Position numbers and translations under genes: made by a program. A DNA stretch of 64,000 nt from an uncultured Holophagaceae bacterium (GTDB taxonomy: Bacteria; Acidobacteriota; Holophagae; Holophagales; Holophagaceae), in the NCBI GenBank assembly GCA_903857495.1, contig CAIOFF010000061.1, forward strand, positions 1-64,000. The letters run 5' to 3'. Below the pieces are notes generated by a model that saw only the letters and a program-made list of their open reading frames with translations, did no database searches and was not told the DNA's origin. Below, piece after piece: positions 13,199 to 19,901 of this stretch (position 1 is its first letter; each line of letters opens with the position of its first letter).

Positions 13199-14833
13199 TC
13201 AGCTCCGCCGCAGCATGAGCAGGGTCCGGTCATCCAGGTAGGGCGCACCCTGGGTGAAGCGATCCAGCTCCCCCAGCAGGGCCGCGTCCAGGGCTGGCAG
13301 CGACTCGTGGCGGCGGGCTGCCACCAGGGCTGTGAGGGCCTCACTGCCGAACTCCTCCTCCGCGGCATTCGAGGCCTCGGTGATGCCGTCGGTGTAGACC
13401 ACGAGGAGGTCGCCCGGCACCAGGCTCAGCGTGGCCTCGCCGTAGGGCTGGCCGGGCAGCATGGCCAGGGGCAGGCCCTGGGCCTCCAGCTCCTGGACCG
13501 GCTCGGCCCCGCGCAGGAGAAGGGCCGGGTTGTGGCCCGCATTGGTGTAGGTCAGCGTACCCGTGGCCGGATCCAGCAGGGCCAGGAAGGCGGTCACGAA
13601 GCGGCGTCCGTCCGTGTGGCGGGCCAGGTTCCTCGACAGCTGGAAAGCCAGCTCCGAGGTGCTGAGGTCCCGCTCGGTCCAGGCCTCGAGGGTGGCCTGG
13701 AGCGAGGCCATGAGGAGGCCCGGGCCCAGGCCCTTGCCGCTCACGTCCGCCAAGCAGAAGAGCCACTTGCCATCGCTGCGGAGCCACCAGCCGAAGAGGT
13801 CGCCGGAGACCTGGCGGCTGGGCAGGTTGTTGCCGTAAAGCTCGAAGCCTGGAATGTCCGGCGGGAAGCCCGGAAGCAGATCCTGCTGGATGCGGCGGGC
13901 CAGGTCCAGCTCCTGATCCACCTTCTTCCGGGCCAGGGCCTCCTCGCGCAGGCGGGCCTGCTCCAGCTTGGCCGTGGCCAGGTGGGCGAAGGTGCTGGCC
14001 AGGCGCAGATCCTCCTCGTGGAAGGGCTTCCGAGGCGGGCGGGAATCCAGGTAGAGCAGGCCCTTCACCACGCCCTGGTGCTCCAGGGGCGTCACCATGG
14101 CCGAGGTCACGCCGCTCTGCATGAGCGAAGGGGAAGCCAGCCCCGGGTCCTCCCCGACGTCGTTGAAGAGGACCGACTCCTTGCGCTCCAGGGCTGCGTC
14201 CACCAGGCTGCGGGCCAAGACGATGGGCTGATCGCCCTCGGGTCCGCGGGAGGCCACGGTGTGCAGCCCGGTCCGGTCCTGGATCAGCACCGCGGCGCGC
14301 CAGGGCTTCAGCAGAGTCCAGAGCCGGTCCAGGAGGTGGGCCAGCAGCTGCTCCGGCGGACTGTCCTCCAGCAGCTCCAGGGAGAGGGCCTGGATCTCGC
14401 GGATCACCTCCCGGAGGTGCAGCGTCTCCGGGGCCTCCCGGCGCCGCTCCGGGGCCGCGCGCAGCCGCTCCAGGGGCAGCACGAGGGAGCCTGCGGAGGA
14501 GGAGTCGCCCGTGTCTGCGCCGATGCGGACCCTTGGCCCCCGGGCGAGCGGGCCCAGCCAGAGGGACACCTGACCCAGCTGGAGCTCGTCACCCTCGCCC
14601 AGGGGATGGGGCACCGTGATCCGCTCACCGTTGAGGGTGGTGCCATTGAGGGAGCCCAGATCCTCAAGGGAGAGCGCACCGGCTTCCAGGCTGATGCGGG
14701 CGTGGAAGCGGCTGAGGCTCGCGTCGGGGATGGTCAGATCGTTCAGAGAGGAGCGACCCAGGGTCCAGACCCGGTCCTCGCCCTCCAGAGGCAGGGGTGG
14801 TCGGCCGGGGATATGCAACATCAGGGTCTTCAT
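13199..14833 (-). CDS. FHA-GAF-PP2C (SpoIIE-type) protein phosphatase
   Basis: A 544-residue cytoplasmic protein. An FHA phosphothreonine-binding domain lies at about 18-90 (TLGRSSLNDL, LSRFHARIS, DLGSLNGTTLNG). A GAF domain is at about 150-300. After a linker helix (LDLARRIQQDLLP), a SpoIIE-family PP2C phosphatase fills 310-543. Its metal-binding acids are seen in VSGDLFGW, LADVSGKGLG and YTDGITEASN. The gene is divergent from a Ser/Thr kinase with a 79-bp shared upstream region. A kinase facing a phosphatase that binds phospho-Thr through FHA suggests a reversible switch. Targets are unknown; a downstream anti-sigma/antagonist partner is the usual role of such phosphatases. Confidence 0.9.
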   Translation of the reverse strand: MKTLMLHIPGRPPLPLEGEDRVWTLGRSSLNDLTIPDASLSRFHARISLEAGALSLEDLGSLNGTTLNGERITVPHPLGEGDELQLGQVSLWLGPLARGPRVRIGADTGDSSSAGSLVLPLERLRAAPERRREAPETLHLREVIREIQALSLELLEDSPPEQLLAHLLDRLWTLLKPWRAAVLIQDRTGLHTVASRGPEGDQPIVLARSLVDAALERKESVLFNDVGEDPGLASPSLMQSGVTSAMVTPLEHQGVVKGLLYLDSRPPRKPFHEEDLRLASTFAHLATAKLEQARLREEALARKKVDQELDLARRIQQDLLPGFPPDIPGFELYGNNLPSRQVSGDLFGWWLRSDGKWLFCLADVSGKGLGPGLLMASLQATLEAWTERDLSTSELAFQLSRNLARHTDGRRFVTAFLALLDPATGTLTYTNAGHNPALLLRGAEPVQELEAQGLPLAMLPGQPYGEATLSLVPGDLLVVYTDGITEASNAAEEEFGSEALTALVAARRHESLPALDAALLGELDRFTQGAPYLDDRTLLMLRRS

Positions 14834-14912: not shown

Positions 14913-17900
14913 TTGACCGATGACCGGACGCCTCGAAGCGCGCCCGATCAGACCCGACGAGGCCGCGATGGCACCACGCAGGATGCACCCGTGAAGCCCC
15001 TCGAGTCCCAGGCCGACACCCTGGCCGGAGCTGCCTCGGCCATCGGGGCCGGGGAGCCTGGTCGCCGCGCCGTGCCGGACTTCCCCGTGAAGGACTGGGA
15101 CCGCTACGAGTTCCTGGGCTTCCTGGGCCAGGGCGGCATGGGGATGGTGTTCCTGGCTCGGGACCGAAAGCTCGGCCGCGAGGTGGCCATCAAGTTCGTG
15201 CGCCTGGAGGACGAGCGGCACCTCCAGCGCTTCCTGGTCGAGGCCCGGGCCCAGGCCCGGGTGGACCACGAGCACGTCTGCAAGGTGTTCGAGGTCGGTG
15301 AGGTGGAGGGCCGGGTCTTCATCACCATGCAGCACATCGCCGGCGGCTCCCTGGAGCAGGCGGCCCCGACGCTGAGCCTGGAGCAGAAGGTCATCGTGCT
15401 GCGCGATGCGGCCCTGGGCGTGCAGGAGGCCCACAAGGTAGGCATCATCCACCGGGACCTGAAGCCCGCCAACATTATGGTGGAGCGGGCTGAGGACGGC
15501 GCCCTGCGCAGCTTCGTCATGGACTTCGGCCTGGCCCGGGAGTGGAACCAGGACGTCACGGAGACGGGCTCGGTGCTGGGCACCCCGGCCTTCATGTCGC
15601 CGGAGCAGGCCCGGGGCGAGCTCCACCTGCTGGACCGGCGCACGGATGTCTACAGCCTGGGCGCCACCCTCTACCTGGTGGCCACGGGCCACCCGCCCAT
15701 CCCGGGCAGCAACGCCCTGGAGGTCCTCAGCGCCATCGGCTCCCACGAGGTGCAGCCCATGCGCCTCCACGGCTCGGGCATCCCCCGGGACCTGGAGGCC
15801 ATCACCCTCAAGTGCCTGGAGAAGGATCCCTCCCGGCGCTACGACTCGGCCCGCGCCTTCGCCGAGGACCTGGACCGCTTCCTGGCGGGGGAGCCCGTGC
15901 TGGCCCGGCCCACGGGCCTGCTCTACCGCCTGCAGCGGAAGCTCCGCCGCCATCGCCAGCTCTCCACGGTGGCCGCCCTGGCCCTCCTCCTGGTATTGGG
16001 CGCCCTGGGCACCACCCTCAAGACCCGCCGGGACGCCAGCCGCCGCGAACACCTGGCCCAGCAGTTCACCGAGTCCATGGGCCGCATCGAGTCCCTGGCC
16101 CGCTACTCGGCCCTGGCGCCCCTGCATGACATCCGCCCGGACCTGCAGGCGGTGCGGGCCCACCTGGACCTGCTGCAGGCAGACATGCGCGCGGCGGGCA
16201 GCCTGGCCAACGGGCCCGGCCACTACGCCCTGGGCCGGGGCTACTGGACCCTGGATGACGCCGAGCAGGCCCGGGAGCACCTGCAGATGGCCTGGGACGC
16301 GGGCTACCGCGAGCCCCGGGTGGCCTTCGCCCTGGCCCTGGTGCTGGGCCGCCAGTACCAGGAGCAGCTGCTGGAGGCGGAGCGCATTTCTGCGCGGGAC
16401 CAGCGGGAGGCCCGGCGGCGGCGCATCGAGGTCCAGCTGCGGGCCCCGGCCCTGGCCTTCCTCCGCAAGGCCCGCGGCGCAGACGTGACCTCCCCCGCCT
16501 ATGTCGAGGCTCTCCAGGCCTTCTACGAGGGGCGCCTGGATGCGGCCCTGGAACACCTCAAGGTCCTGGCGGGCGAGCAGCCCTGGTTCTTCGAGGCCCC
16601 CCTGCTGCGGGGCTCGCTCCTACAGGCCCGGGCCTGGTCCTGGTGGAACCAGGGACAGCCCGAGAAGGCCCAGGCTGACTTCGAGGCCGGCCGCCAGGAC
16701 CTGGCCCTCGCCGCCGCCAGCGGGCGCAGCGCCCCTGCGGTCTACGCGGCCCTGGCGCAGCTGGAGCTGAACGCCCTGACCATGGAGAAGTACAGCCAGG
16801 GTCAGGTAAAGCCCGCCTTCGAGCGGGGCCTGGCGGCGGTGCAGCTGGCCCTCCAGGCCCAGGCGGACCACGCGCCCTCCCTTATCCTCCAGGCGGCCCT
16901 GCTGGGTCAGTACGCGGATGTGCTGACCGGCCGCGGCGAGCACCCGGACGCCCTGGTCCAGGAGGCCGTGGCCGCGGCCCTGAAGGCCCAGGCGGCCGGA
17001 CCCACCCGGGCCGATGCCTGGGCGGCCCTGGGCAAGGCCTACTACCAGTGGGGCAACGAGCGCCTCGACCACAATCTGGATCCCACGGAGCAACTGGCCC
17101 AGGGGCTCCGGACCCTGGAGTCCCTGGCGGCTCCGAAGCGCGACTACCCGGTGGAGAACCACCTGGGCCTCATCCATCAGACCTGGTCCGAATATGACCT
17201 CCAGCAGGGGCTGGATCCACGGCCCCACCTGGACGGGGCCATCGCGGCCTACGAGCGGGCCACGGCCATGGAGCCCCAGTCCCTGCCCGCCTGGATCAAC
17301 CTGGGCACCTGCCTCCAGCAGCGGGCCGTGCTGCCGGGCACCGCAGATCCCGAAGCGGACCTCCAGCGGGCCCTGCAGGTGCTGGACCGGGCCCACACCC
17401 TCAACCCCCGCCACTTCGTCCCCTGTTTCGTGCAGGGCAAGGTGCTCTACAGCCAGGCGCTGCGCAAGCAGGAGCGGGGCGAGGATCCCAGCGCCGACCT
17501 GCAAGCCTCCCTGGAGGCCAACCGCCGGGGGCTGGCCATCAATGCCGAGGTGCCGCACCTGCACAACGGGGTCGGCGTGGCCCAGCAGCAGGTGGCCCGC
17601 GCCGCCTGGGAGCGGGGTCAGGATCCCCTGCCCGCCCTGGCCGCCGCGGAGCAGGCCTTCCGCCGGGCCATGGCCGTAGCCCCGGGCCAGGTGCTGGGCT
17701 ACCTGAACCTGGCAGACCTGCTCATCTGGAAGGCGCGGCGCGGGCTGGACGCTCGCGCGGCAGGCAGCATCCAGGTCCTCGAGACGCTGGTGCGCCGGAG
17801 CCTGGCGACCGCCCCCGGAGATCCGGGCGCCCTCGCCACGCAGGGGCGCCTGGCGGCCCTGCGCCTGGAGCAGCTGCAGAGCCGCCCCGGGGACTTCCGG

Positions 17901-18422
17901 TCCATCCTGGCCGCGGGGGAGACGGCCCTGGCCGCCGTGCTCGACCGCCAGCCCCGGCACCGGGACGCCCTGCTCTACCTGGGCGAGCTGCGCAGCGCCG
18001 TGGCCCGCCTGAAGGCCCAGCGCGGCCAGGCTGCCCCCGAGGACTTCGAGGCGGCCGACCAGGCCCTGGCCAGGGCCCTGCAGGCACCGCCCGAGTCCCA
18101 GGAAGCCCTGCTGGACCGGGCCGCCCTGGCCCATGATCGGGCGCTCTGGGAACAGGCCCGGGGGCAGGCTCCCGTCCGCCAGCTGGCCCTAGGCGAGGCC
18201 ACGCTGAACCAGCTCGCCAAGCTGCACCCAGGCATGGGCGAGGCTCTGGCCCTGCGGGGCGCCCTGAAGCTGGCGGAGGCCCAGTCAGGGGGCTCCGCCG
18301 AGCGCACTGGCAAGGCCCGCGAGGCCCACCGGGCCTTCCAGGAGGCCTTCACCCGCAACCGCCACCTGGAGCCCACCTGGCGCGCCGCCGACCAGCAGGC
18401 CCGGGCCCTGGCTCAGCCCTAG
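14913..18422 (+). CDS. Transmembrane Ser/Thr protein kinase with long TPR tail
   Basis: A Hanks-type kinase domain covers about residues 65-330: glycine loop LGQGGMGMVFLARD, VAIKFV lysine, catalytic IIHRDLKPANIM (His181 of HRD), DFGLARE and GTPAFMSPEQA. One membrane segment (about 351-369, VAALALLLVLGALG) places the C-terminal 800 residues outside the cytoplasm. Those residues are Ala/Leu/Gln-rich helical repeats of TPR/SEL1 character. The longest frame starts at a TTG (14913) without a clear ribosome-binding site; a GTG at 14991 (27 codons later) is an equally likely start and keeps all domains. This architecture is common in Acidobacteriota and Planctomycetes. Pairing with the divergent FHA-PP2C phosphatase is inferred. 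Confidence 0.92.
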   Translation: MTDDRTPRSAPDQTRRGRDGTTQDAPVKPLESQADTLAGAASAIGAGEPGRRAVPDFPVKDWDRYEFLGFLGQGGMGMVFLARDRKLGREVAIKFVRLEDERHLQRFLVEARAQARVDHEHVCKVFEVGEVEGRVFITMQHIAGGSLEQAAPTLSLEQKVIVLRDAALGVQEAHKVGIIHRDLKPANIMVERAEDGALRSFVMDFGLAREWNQDVTETGSVLGTPAFMSPEQARGELHLLDRRTDVYSLGATLYLVATGHPPIPGSNALEVLSAIGSHEVQPMRLHGSGIPRDLEAITLKCLEKDPSRRYDSARAFAEDLDRFLAGEPVLARPTGLLYRLQRKLRRHRQLSTVAALALLLVLGALGTTLKTRRDASRREHLAQQFTESMGRIESLARYSALAPLHDIRPDLQAVRAHLDLLQADMRAAGSLANGPGHYALGRGYWTLDDAEQAREHLQMAWDAGYREPRVAFALALVLGRQYQEQLLEAERISARDQREARRRRIEVQLRAPALAFLRKARGADVTSPAYVEALQAFYEGRLDAALEHLKVLAGEQPWFFEAPLLRGSLLQARAWSWWNQGQPEKAQADFEAGRQDLALAAASGRSAPAVYAALAQLELNALTMEKYSQGQVKPAFERGLAAVQLALQAQADHAPSLILQAALLGQYADVLTGRGEHPDALVQEAVAAALKAQAAGPTRADAWAALGKAYYQWGNERLDHNLDPTEQLAQGLRTLESLAAPKRDYPVENHLGLIHQTWSEYDLQQGLDPRPHLDGAIAAYERATAMEPQSLPAWINLGTCLQQRAVLPGTADPEADLQRALQVLDRAHTLNPRHFVPCFVQGKVLYSQALRKQERGEDPSADLQASLEANRRGLAINAEVPHLHNGVGVAQQQVARAAWERGQDPLPALAAAEQAFRRAMAVAPGQVLGYLNLADLLIWKARRGLDARAAGSIQVLETLVRRSLATAPGDPGALATQGRLAALRLEQLQSRPGDFRSILAAGETALAAVLDRQPRHRDALLYLGELRSAVARLKAQRGQAAPEDFEAADQALARALQAPPESQEALLDRAALAHDRALWEQARGQAPVRQLALGEATLNQLAKLHPGMGEALALRGALKLAEAQSGGSAERTGKAREAHRAFQEAFTRNRHLEPTWRAADQQARALAQP

Positions 18423-18460
18423 GAGCTGGGATCACCGGCTGAAACTCAAAAAAAATCAGC

Positions 18461-18614
18461 CGCCGATGAACACCGATGAACACCGATGAACACCGATGAA
18501 CACCGATGAACACCGATGAACACCGATGAAGGCATGATAAAAAGAAAATAAATATTTATTTAATTCTTTATTTATCAGCTTTTAATCAGCATTTATCGGT
18601 GTTCATCGGTGGTT
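18461..18614. repeat. R1: 10-bp-unit inverted array (caccgatgaa family)
   Basis: Seven tandem 10-bp units (cgccgatgaa once, then caccgatgaa six times; 18461-18530) are followed by an AT-rich spacer beginning ggcatgataaaaa. The spacer includes tttatcagcttttaatcagc, and then an inverted arm ttatcggtgttcatcggtgg ends near 18612. The arms would pair into a hairpin. The spacer start and the cagctttt segment recur in R2 (45672-45890), so R1 is a copy of a dispersed element. It lies between the kinase stop and the convergent small ORF. No protein is encoded. Confidence 0.9.
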
Positions 18615-18647
18615 AATTTTGATCTTTTTCCGTAACCGGCAAGCGGC

Positions 18648-18788
18648 TCAGCCTGAAACCTTGATGGTGCCCGTGCCGCCAATGCCTTGGGCGGTGCTGG
18701 CCTCGGCGGCCAGGTTCTCAGCCTGGTTCTCCTCGGTGCCTTCGGGCGCGGCGCCGTCCGGCTCTTCGCTGTTGGCTTTGGGAATCAT
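18648..18788 (-). CDS. Small acidic peptide gene with Gly-rich C-terminus (46 aa), unrecognised
   Basis: Forty-six codons starting at an ATG placed 4 bases after a perfect AGGAGGT ribosome-binding site (18793-18799). The product begins MIPKANSEEPDG, is rich in Glu, Asn, Ala and Gln in its first 33 residues, and ends in GIGGTGTIKVSG. There is no signal peptide, membrane segment or Cys. A charged leader with a short Gly/Thr/Ser end resembles a precursor-peptide layout, but no maturase, transporter or protease lies next to it. The GIGGTG hexapeptide also occurs in some exported DUF5666/FecR-type proteins as I recall. Its translation signal is better than those of many genes here, so I regard it as real; function is unknown. 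Confidence 0.6.
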   Translation of the reverse strand: MIPKANSEEPDGAAPEGTEENQAENLAAEASTAQGIGGTGTIKVSG

Positions 18789-18869
18789 GGGGACCTCCTG
18801 AAATGGGGTTGAGGGCTGGCCCAGGATCTTGAGACTCAGAACCTGGAACCCTGAAATATGGAGCCAAGC

Positions 18870-18947
18870 CTAGTCCCCTGCCAGCACGAACTGAAGGTTT
18901 TTCTTCGGATCCTCTCGGATTTTATCGACCCAGTCCTTCTCCGCCAC
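18870..18947 (-). pseudogene. Possible 3' remnant or tiny ORF ending KNLQFVLAGD
   Basis: An open frame on the minus strand ends at a TAG (18870-18872) and reads protein-like: AEKDWVDKIREDPKKN then LQFVLAGD. The only usable start inside it is a GTG at 18947 without a convincing ribosome-binding site. Open frame continues upstream (RATTLAERAEKAG) without an ATG. It may be the tail of a gene lost by rearrangement in this repeat-containing strip, or simply chance. Confidence 0.25.
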
Positions 18948-19031
18948 CCCTGCCTTCTCCGCGCGCTCTGCGAGAGTGGTTGCCCTACCGCTTTTTCGCA
19001 GTCCAGCGCCAAGCCCCCGTAAGCTGGAACC

Positions 19032-19901
19032 ATGGCGCTGAGCAAATGGACCTTCACCGTGACACCCGAGGACGCGGAGCTGCGCCTGGATCAGCTCATC
19101 GCCAAGCGCACGGAGCTGTCCCGGCGCTCGGCCCGGGAGGCCCTCAAGCTGGGCGGCGTCCAGGTGGACCGCAAGCGGGTGAAGGTGGCGGGCAAGCTGG
19201 TGAAGGCGGGTCTGGAGATCCGCGTCGCCTTTGATCCGGACCTGCCAGCGGTACCCACCATGCCCATCCCCATCGTCTTCGAGGACGCCTGGCTCATCGC
19301 CGTGGACAAGCCCGCGGGCATCGCCACCCAGGGCACCTGGGCCACGGATCGCCATGACCTGCTGGCCCTGCTGAAGGCCCAGCGCCCGGACCTGCAGACC
19401 TTCCTGCACCACCGCCTGGACCAGGGCACCTCGGGCCTGCTGGTGCTGGCCAAGGATCCCAAGGCGAACAAGGGCCTGGCCGAGGCCTTCGCCTCCCGGG
19501 ACCTGGTGAAGCTCTACCTGGCGCGGCTCTCAGAGCCCCTGGAGGCCTGCACGGTCAAGGTCCCCATCGGCCGCCTGCGGGGCGCGGATCCCGGCCGCTT
19601 CGGCTGCGAGGGAGACCTCAGGGACCCCAAGTCCGCCCACACGGACTTCCGCCCGGCCACCGCCGAAGAGACCGCAGGCCTGGTGCCCGGCCACTGGGTC
19701 GTGGCGCGCATCCACACGGGCCGCACCCACCAGATCCGCGTGCACCTCGTCCACCTGGGCCACCCCATTCTGGGCGACGGCCTCTACGGCGGCGCCCCCT
19801 CGGACCGCCTCTGGCTCCACGCCTGGCGCCTGGGCCTCAACCACCCCGTCACCGGCGAGCCCCTGCTGCTGGAGGCCCCGCCGGTCCGGTTCCGGGCATG
19901 A
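19032..19901 (+). CDS. RluA-family 23S rRNA/tRNA pseudouridine synthase
   Basis: A 289-residue protein with an N-terminal S4 RNA-binding domain (LRLDQLIAKR, SRRSAREALKLGGVQVD) and an RluA catalytic domain. The catalytic aspartate sits in HHRLDQGTSGLLVLAK; the C-terminal IHTGRTHQIRVHL, LGHPILGDGLYG are typical. It converts specific uridines of structured RNA to pseudouridine. Which site (RluC/RluD-like or tRNA) cannot be decided from motifs alone. Its stop overlaps the start of the next gene (ATGA), so the two are translationally coupled. Confidence 0.93.
   Translation: MALSKWTFTVTPEDAELRLDQLIAKRTELSRRSAREALKLGGVQVDRKRVKVAGKLVKAGLEIRVAFDPDLPAVPTMPIPIVFEDAWLIAVDKPAGIATQGTWATDRHDLLALLKAQRPDLQTFLHHRLDQGTSGLLVLAKDPKANKGLAEAFASRDLVKLYLARLSEPLEACTVKVPIGRLRGADPGRFGCEGDLRDPKSAHTDFRPATAEETAGLVPGHWVVARIHTGRTHQIRVHLVHLGHPILGDGLYGGAPSDRLWLHAWRLGLNHPVTGEPLLLEAPPVRFRA

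Follow-up and report, generated by a model that had tools for sequence, protein, structure and literature searches.

The locus examined here raises the question of whether a 46-codon open reading frame lying tail to tail with a Ser/Thr protein kinase gene is a gene at all and, if so, what its product does. We analyzed this frame, ORF46, in the whole 64,000-nucleotide stretch of contig CAIOFF010000061.1 (the window), which comes from a 3.7-Mb assembly of 70 contigs. ORF46 is present at positions 18648–18788, as a preliminary description of this DNA had reported; the strand, which that description left unstated, is the minus strand. Read from 18788 down to 18648, the product comprises 46 residues (MIPKANSEEPDGAAPEGTEENQAENLAAEASTAQGIGGTGTIKVSG). 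Its acidic character (net charge −6) and its C-terminus both agree with what had been described, as does an AGGAGGT ribosome-binding site at 18793–18799 (minus strand), four bases ahead of the ATG. GGAG-type sites also occur upstream of the relatives of ORF46. The last ten codons (GGTGTIKVSG) and the stop, at 18648–18680 of the minus strand, constitute the conserved tail, delimited by conservation, a tail pattern, and selection. The frame had been placed between a kinase gene and a repeat. The repeat is indeed nearby, at 18453–18620, where a 10-nt GATGAACACC-type unit is repeated seven times in register and followed by an inverted copy, and it could form a long hairpin. The order is different: the repeat separates the kinase stop from the ORF46 stop, so that ORF46 is flanked by the repeat and by a divergent gene for an RluA-type pseudouridine synthase. 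Rfam matches at 18400–19100 lay mostly on the inverted repeat, all scored far below the gathering scores, and were rejected.

Relatives of ORF46 were sought in 77 genomes of the family Holophagaceae. Eight of these, its own genome included, carry a relative covering at least 39 of the 46 residues with an E value of 0.0017 or lower; full-length relatives in other genomes have E values from 5e-22 to 6e-4. The C-terminal pattern was found at one site per genome in 10 of the 77 genomes, all belonging to one genus, and the reversed pattern, used as a control, gave no site in the 77. Among named records, eight of the nine showing the tail pattern are from Holophagaceae/Geothrix (Geothrix sp. and Holophagaceae MAGs), and we therefore treat the window as Geothrix-type DNA. 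The ninth (L067, Clostridia) is a lysin-like protein with GW instead of a stop at this end, and was dropped. No additional ORF with the tail was detected in the window or in the fetched loci, including the second kinases. The single occurrence of the tail in each genome speaks against a general sorting tag or a degron, and these functions, like that of a Pup-like tag, were set aside. Selection was estimated on nine short sequences (G000, G040, G017, G048, G041, G046, G018, G022, and G029). Over the 36 pairs, the last ten codons have a dN/dS of about 0.10, compared with about 0.75 in the remainder of the gene and about 0.59 across its full length; the five closest sequences give about 0.14 for the last ten codons versus about 0.42 for the rest. 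Silent changes outnumber amino-acid changes among the relatives, most strongly in the tail. The low tail value compared with the rest indicates that selection holds the tail and that the N-terminal part is loosely held. Homologues under purifying selection, which the preliminary description had proposed to look for, thus exist in other genomes. Judged from its sequence, ORF46 is a real gene, far beyond what chance would produce.

The neighboring kinase gene (14913–18422, plus strand) encodes a Ser/Thr protein kinase with one transmembrane segment (about residues 350–368) and C-terminal TPRs, and without a cyclase domain. Its C-terminal half has a match in 21 of the 77 genomes at an E value of 1e-30 or better. 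In all 21 kinase-bearing genomes, a small gene whose product ends in G-[ST]-[IV]-x-V-[TSN]-[GR] lies on the opposite strand beside the kinase stop. This convergent kinase is the sole neighbor common to the 21 places. On its outer side, the small gene is bordered by rluA in five genomes, a cyclophilin gene in seven, an FHA-GAF-SpoIIE phosphatase gene in three, another gene in three, and an unidentified one in three. Among the 56 genomes without a kinase match, none shows the tail pattern, and in 55 neither gene was found with the pattern and the long-form profile. The exception, G059, belongs to another genus and has a match to the long-form profile in a gene cut by the contig end. This joint absence may reflect only linked loss.

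The arrangement of the stop codons bears on the meaning of this linkage. An exact 11-nt tail-to-tail overlap is found in seven genomes (L053 and L056–L061), a gap of 8–29 nt in eight, and a gap of 144–255 nt in five; in the remaining genome, G041, the contig with the small gene carries only the 3' end of the kinase gene. The pair might have been kept only through a former lock exerted by the 3' overlap, with a small protein working apart from the kinase. An overlap of 11 nt in 7 of the 21 genomes by itself favors retention of the neighbor, and constrains the last codons in those genomes. However, the two genes still adjoin in 13 genomes where they do not overlap (gaps of 8–255 nt, both stops on one stretch), although the outer neighbor changed several times, and the absence of both genes from 55 of the 56 remaining genomes searched (G059 excepted) also argues against such a lock. 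We consider this explanation unlikely.

The 21 small genes fall into two size classes, 11 coding for long forms (97–118 aa) and 10 for short forms (45–54 aa); most members of both start with M-x-[TP]-K. The long forms are encoded at the same place beside the kinase gene and share the tail. No long form was found elsewhere in the 10 genomes with a short form, and when the search was widened to 396 genomes of the phylum, long forms turned up in nine, all of them Holophagaceae. Nine short sequences, 45–48 aa in length, form the main short clade. The tenth, from G047, is Lys-rich with a net charge of +12, so that short forms do not have a conserved N-terminal charge. No accepted family was found for the small proteins in Pfam, NCBIfam, PHROGs, or PADLOC (three short forms only in the case of NCBIfam). 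ORF46 itself has no Pfam or NCBIfam match, and weak Pfam and PHROGs rows for the long forms (E 0.04–0.2) were below the cut-off and taken as chance. No paper on the family was found in the open-access literature searched. ORF46 belongs to an unnamed, lineage-restricted, kinase-linked family.

Structure prediction indicated what the long forms may be. For the compact long form of G006 (97 aa), the best model has a mean pLDDT of 88.9, the other four ranging from 69 to 75, and the tail forms its last strand (residues 90–96). Foldseek gave the cupredoxin-like domain 4hcf_A as the best PDB match of this model (E 3.9e-4). VIA-align also placed cupredoxins on top (Z 9.7, rmsd 2.4, 86 aligned residues), and the 50 matches listed are, by title, cupredoxin-type domains. 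The long forms are predicted to adopt a cupredoxin-like Greek-key beta-sandwich, which would span residues 1–97 in the compact form. Searching the PDB with a sequence profile yielded weak matches only, with E values of 0.65 or worse. The other long type (112 aa, G031) has an extra strand ahead of the tail in its AF2 model, and the tail itself is unstructured there and of low confidence; this model had no Foldseek match below an E value of 0.001. The predicted fold of the compact long forms is like that of single-domain proteins such as 4hcf (Cupredoxin_1), FtrB (8vuk), and the plastocyanins 2gim and 1bxu. Type-1 copper sites are formed by two His, a Cys, and usually a Met. Of these ligands, only Cys53 is invariant in the 11 long forms, with no invariant His and no invariant Met other than the start; by alignment, therefore, they are not type-1 copper proteins. 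Unlike cupredoxins, they also show no hydrophobic signal segment. ORF46 lacks the sandwich and is not itself a cupredoxin: all that it has in common with the long forms is the segment of the last strand.

According to a tree built from all 21 kinases, the nine acidic short forms correspond to one clade (100/100) and G047 lies among the long forms. The well-supported branches require two changes between forms, and none of 200 bootstrap trees has a single one; an AU test did not reject one short-form clade (p-AU 0.154). These sequence comparisons favor loss of the sandwich on two separate occasions.

The short form might be a decaying relic of a cupredoxin-like gene, without a function of its own. 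The fast evolution of its N-terminal part (the dN/dS of about 0.75) would be expected of such a relic, and with the sandwich gone the last strand no longer has its structural role. Decay is difficult to reconcile with an open frame, a GGAG-type ribosome-binding site, and a tail retained in all nine sequences of the main short clade, with lengths that hold at 45–48 aa and silent changes in the tail far exceeding amino-acid changes. We regard a relic as quite improbable. The conservation pattern rather hints, at the sequence level, that the tail is the working part of ORF46.

A precursor peptide was one of the possibilities first raised for ORF46: an acidic leader ending in Gly-Gly would be cut off, and the last eight residues (TGTIKVSG) freed as a signal or modified peptide. 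Some RiPP precursors have double-glycine leaders, and in RiPP precursors the leader is conserved and the core variable. ORF46 resembles them in size and in its acidic leader, and the Gly-Gly precedes the last eight residues in all nine members of the main short clade. However, the order of conservation is reversed, with a variable N-terminus and a conserved end, and the Gly-Gly is missing at this place in 10 of the 11 long forms and in the short form of G047. The neighborhoods have no peptidase, cyclase, or transporter in common, and we saw no maturation or export enzyme among the five neighbors in the window, the kinase, the phosphatase, and the genes compared between neighborhoods. The part that would be freed forms the last strand of the predicted folded domain in the compact long forms of sister genomes, and the sole common neighbor is a kinase without a cyclase domain. 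This comparison does not support the precursor explanation, which we hold to be highly improbable.

Following the numbering of ORF46, residue 41 is Thr in 14 and Ser in 7 of the 21 partners, and nothing else. Residue 43, which in a strand should face the same side as residue 41, varies between Lys, Arg, Gln, Asn, and Thr. The exceptions elsewhere are Ala at residue 39 in two partners, Asn at residue 45 in three, and Arg at residue 46 in one. As the fold is lost while a strand of about eight residues is kept, with residue 41 constant and residue 43 free, we take the tail to be a recognition strand that may include a phosphoacceptor. The suggestion of a small regulator or kinase substrate finds support in its context (a convergent kinase and a Ser or Thr at residue 41, each in 21 of 21), and this residue is compatible with a kinase substrate, no more.

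We propose, with about an even chance of being right, that ORF46 is a cytoplasmic partner dedicated to the kinase-TPR module and the descendant of a sandwich protein, in which the sandwich was lost and the C-terminal strand is under selection. The ancestor would have been a cupredoxin-like beta-sandwich protein of roughly 97–118 residues encoded at the same place. In the lineage of the window the sandwich would have been dropped, leaving a disordered acidic N-terminus, probably mainly a spacer, and the tail, and selection would keep the strand G-[ST]-I-x-V-[ST]-G. None of four small proteins checked has a strong hydrophobic segment, and the kinase has its single transmembrane segment near residue 350. 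This places the small protein probably in the cytoplasm, where the kinase domain would also lie. With a single membrane crossing, the kinase should have its TPRs on the other side from a protein that has no signal peptide, and docking on them would need another topology. The tail would be a short recognition strand that docks on one of two proteins, the kinase, through its kinase domain, or the FHA-GAF-SpoIIE phosphatase. With the Ser/Thr at residue 41 as a possible phosphoacceptor, it would probably act as a substrate or competitor. We infer the contact and the phosphorylation of ORF46, as well as the direction of control between it and the kinase module. The placement of the TPRs, the 11-nt overlap in seven genomes, the incompletely fixed tail, the unconfident tail of the G031 model, a single loss that is not rejected, and the possibility of linked loss count against the partner reading.

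More tentatively, and with some doubt, a whole domain may have been discarded, perhaps twice, and its last beta-strand kept as a free linear motif, recognized by a bacterial Ser/Thr kinase-phosphatase module. If true, a short motif would have arisen from a fold's edge strand, with the ancestral (folded) and derived (peptide) states present in one genus. This genus, with folded and domain-less versions side by side, is a natural setting in which to ask whether a partner can work through its terminal strand only. Few substrates and partners of bacterial Hanks-type kinases are known. This family offers one candidate partner per genome, encoded tail to tail with its kinase and small enough for a synthetic peptide.

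The phosphatase gene (13199–14833, minus strand), recognized by domain matches and neighborhood comparison, is divergent from the kinase gene and encodes FHA, GAF, and SpoIIE (PP2C-type) domains. In the fetched DNA it is linked in 12 of the 21 genomes: directly beside the kinase gene in eight, past a second kinase gene in one, and beside the small gene in three. It was not seen in the DNA fetched for the other nine, at least two of these stretches stopping at contig edges. A motif S-x-[AV]-[EDN]-T ahead of the kinase domain (14913–15090 in the window) is present in the 19 kinases of which the N-terminus was read, and may serve the FHA domain of the phosphatase as a phosphothreonine site.

Kinase- and phosphatase-linked FHA proteins include OdhI/GarA. 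Clusters in which genes for FHA proteins adjoin those for Ser/Thr kinases and phosphatases are mentioned for M. tuberculosis (PMC1262709). The likeness with the locus described here is that a kinase, an FHA-bearing phosphatase, and a small partner are encoded together; the difference is that the FHA domain sits in the phosphatase and ORF46 has none. In SpoIIE/RsbU partner switching, the partner is an anti-anti-sigma protein with a STAS domain. The association of a SpoIIE-type phosphatase, a kinase, and a small protein that may be a phospho-substrate is similar, whereas the kinase here is of the Pkinase (Hanks) type and not an anti-sigma kinase. No STAS match was found in three short forms of the ORF46 family or in four long forms.

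Upstream of ORF46, an inverted repeat (CCAGG...CCTGG; 18821–18846, minus strand) is predicted to form a stem-loop in the 5' leader. Over the 21 leaders the mean z is −1.56 against dinucleotide shuffles, with 19 negative values, for a place picked after inspection and among related genomes; controls at eight other offsets gave means of −0.45 to 0.89. A scan with the sigma-70 consensus found no promoter upstream of ORF46. A putative promoter-like −10 hexamer, TAGGCT (18867–18872, minus strand), lies about 80 bases ahead of the start and at about the same place in 18 of the 21 upstream regions; the other three have the near-variants TAGCCT (G044), TAAGCT (G008), and AAGGCT (G028). PADLOC matches of the kinase (PD-T4-6 and others) cover the kinase domain and were taken as generic. 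In three genomes, a second kinase gene (903–908 aa) lies just upstream of the first (L047, 2403–5114; L048, 2612–5329; L062, 2225–4951), and related kinase matches are also found upstream in L082, L085, and L089.
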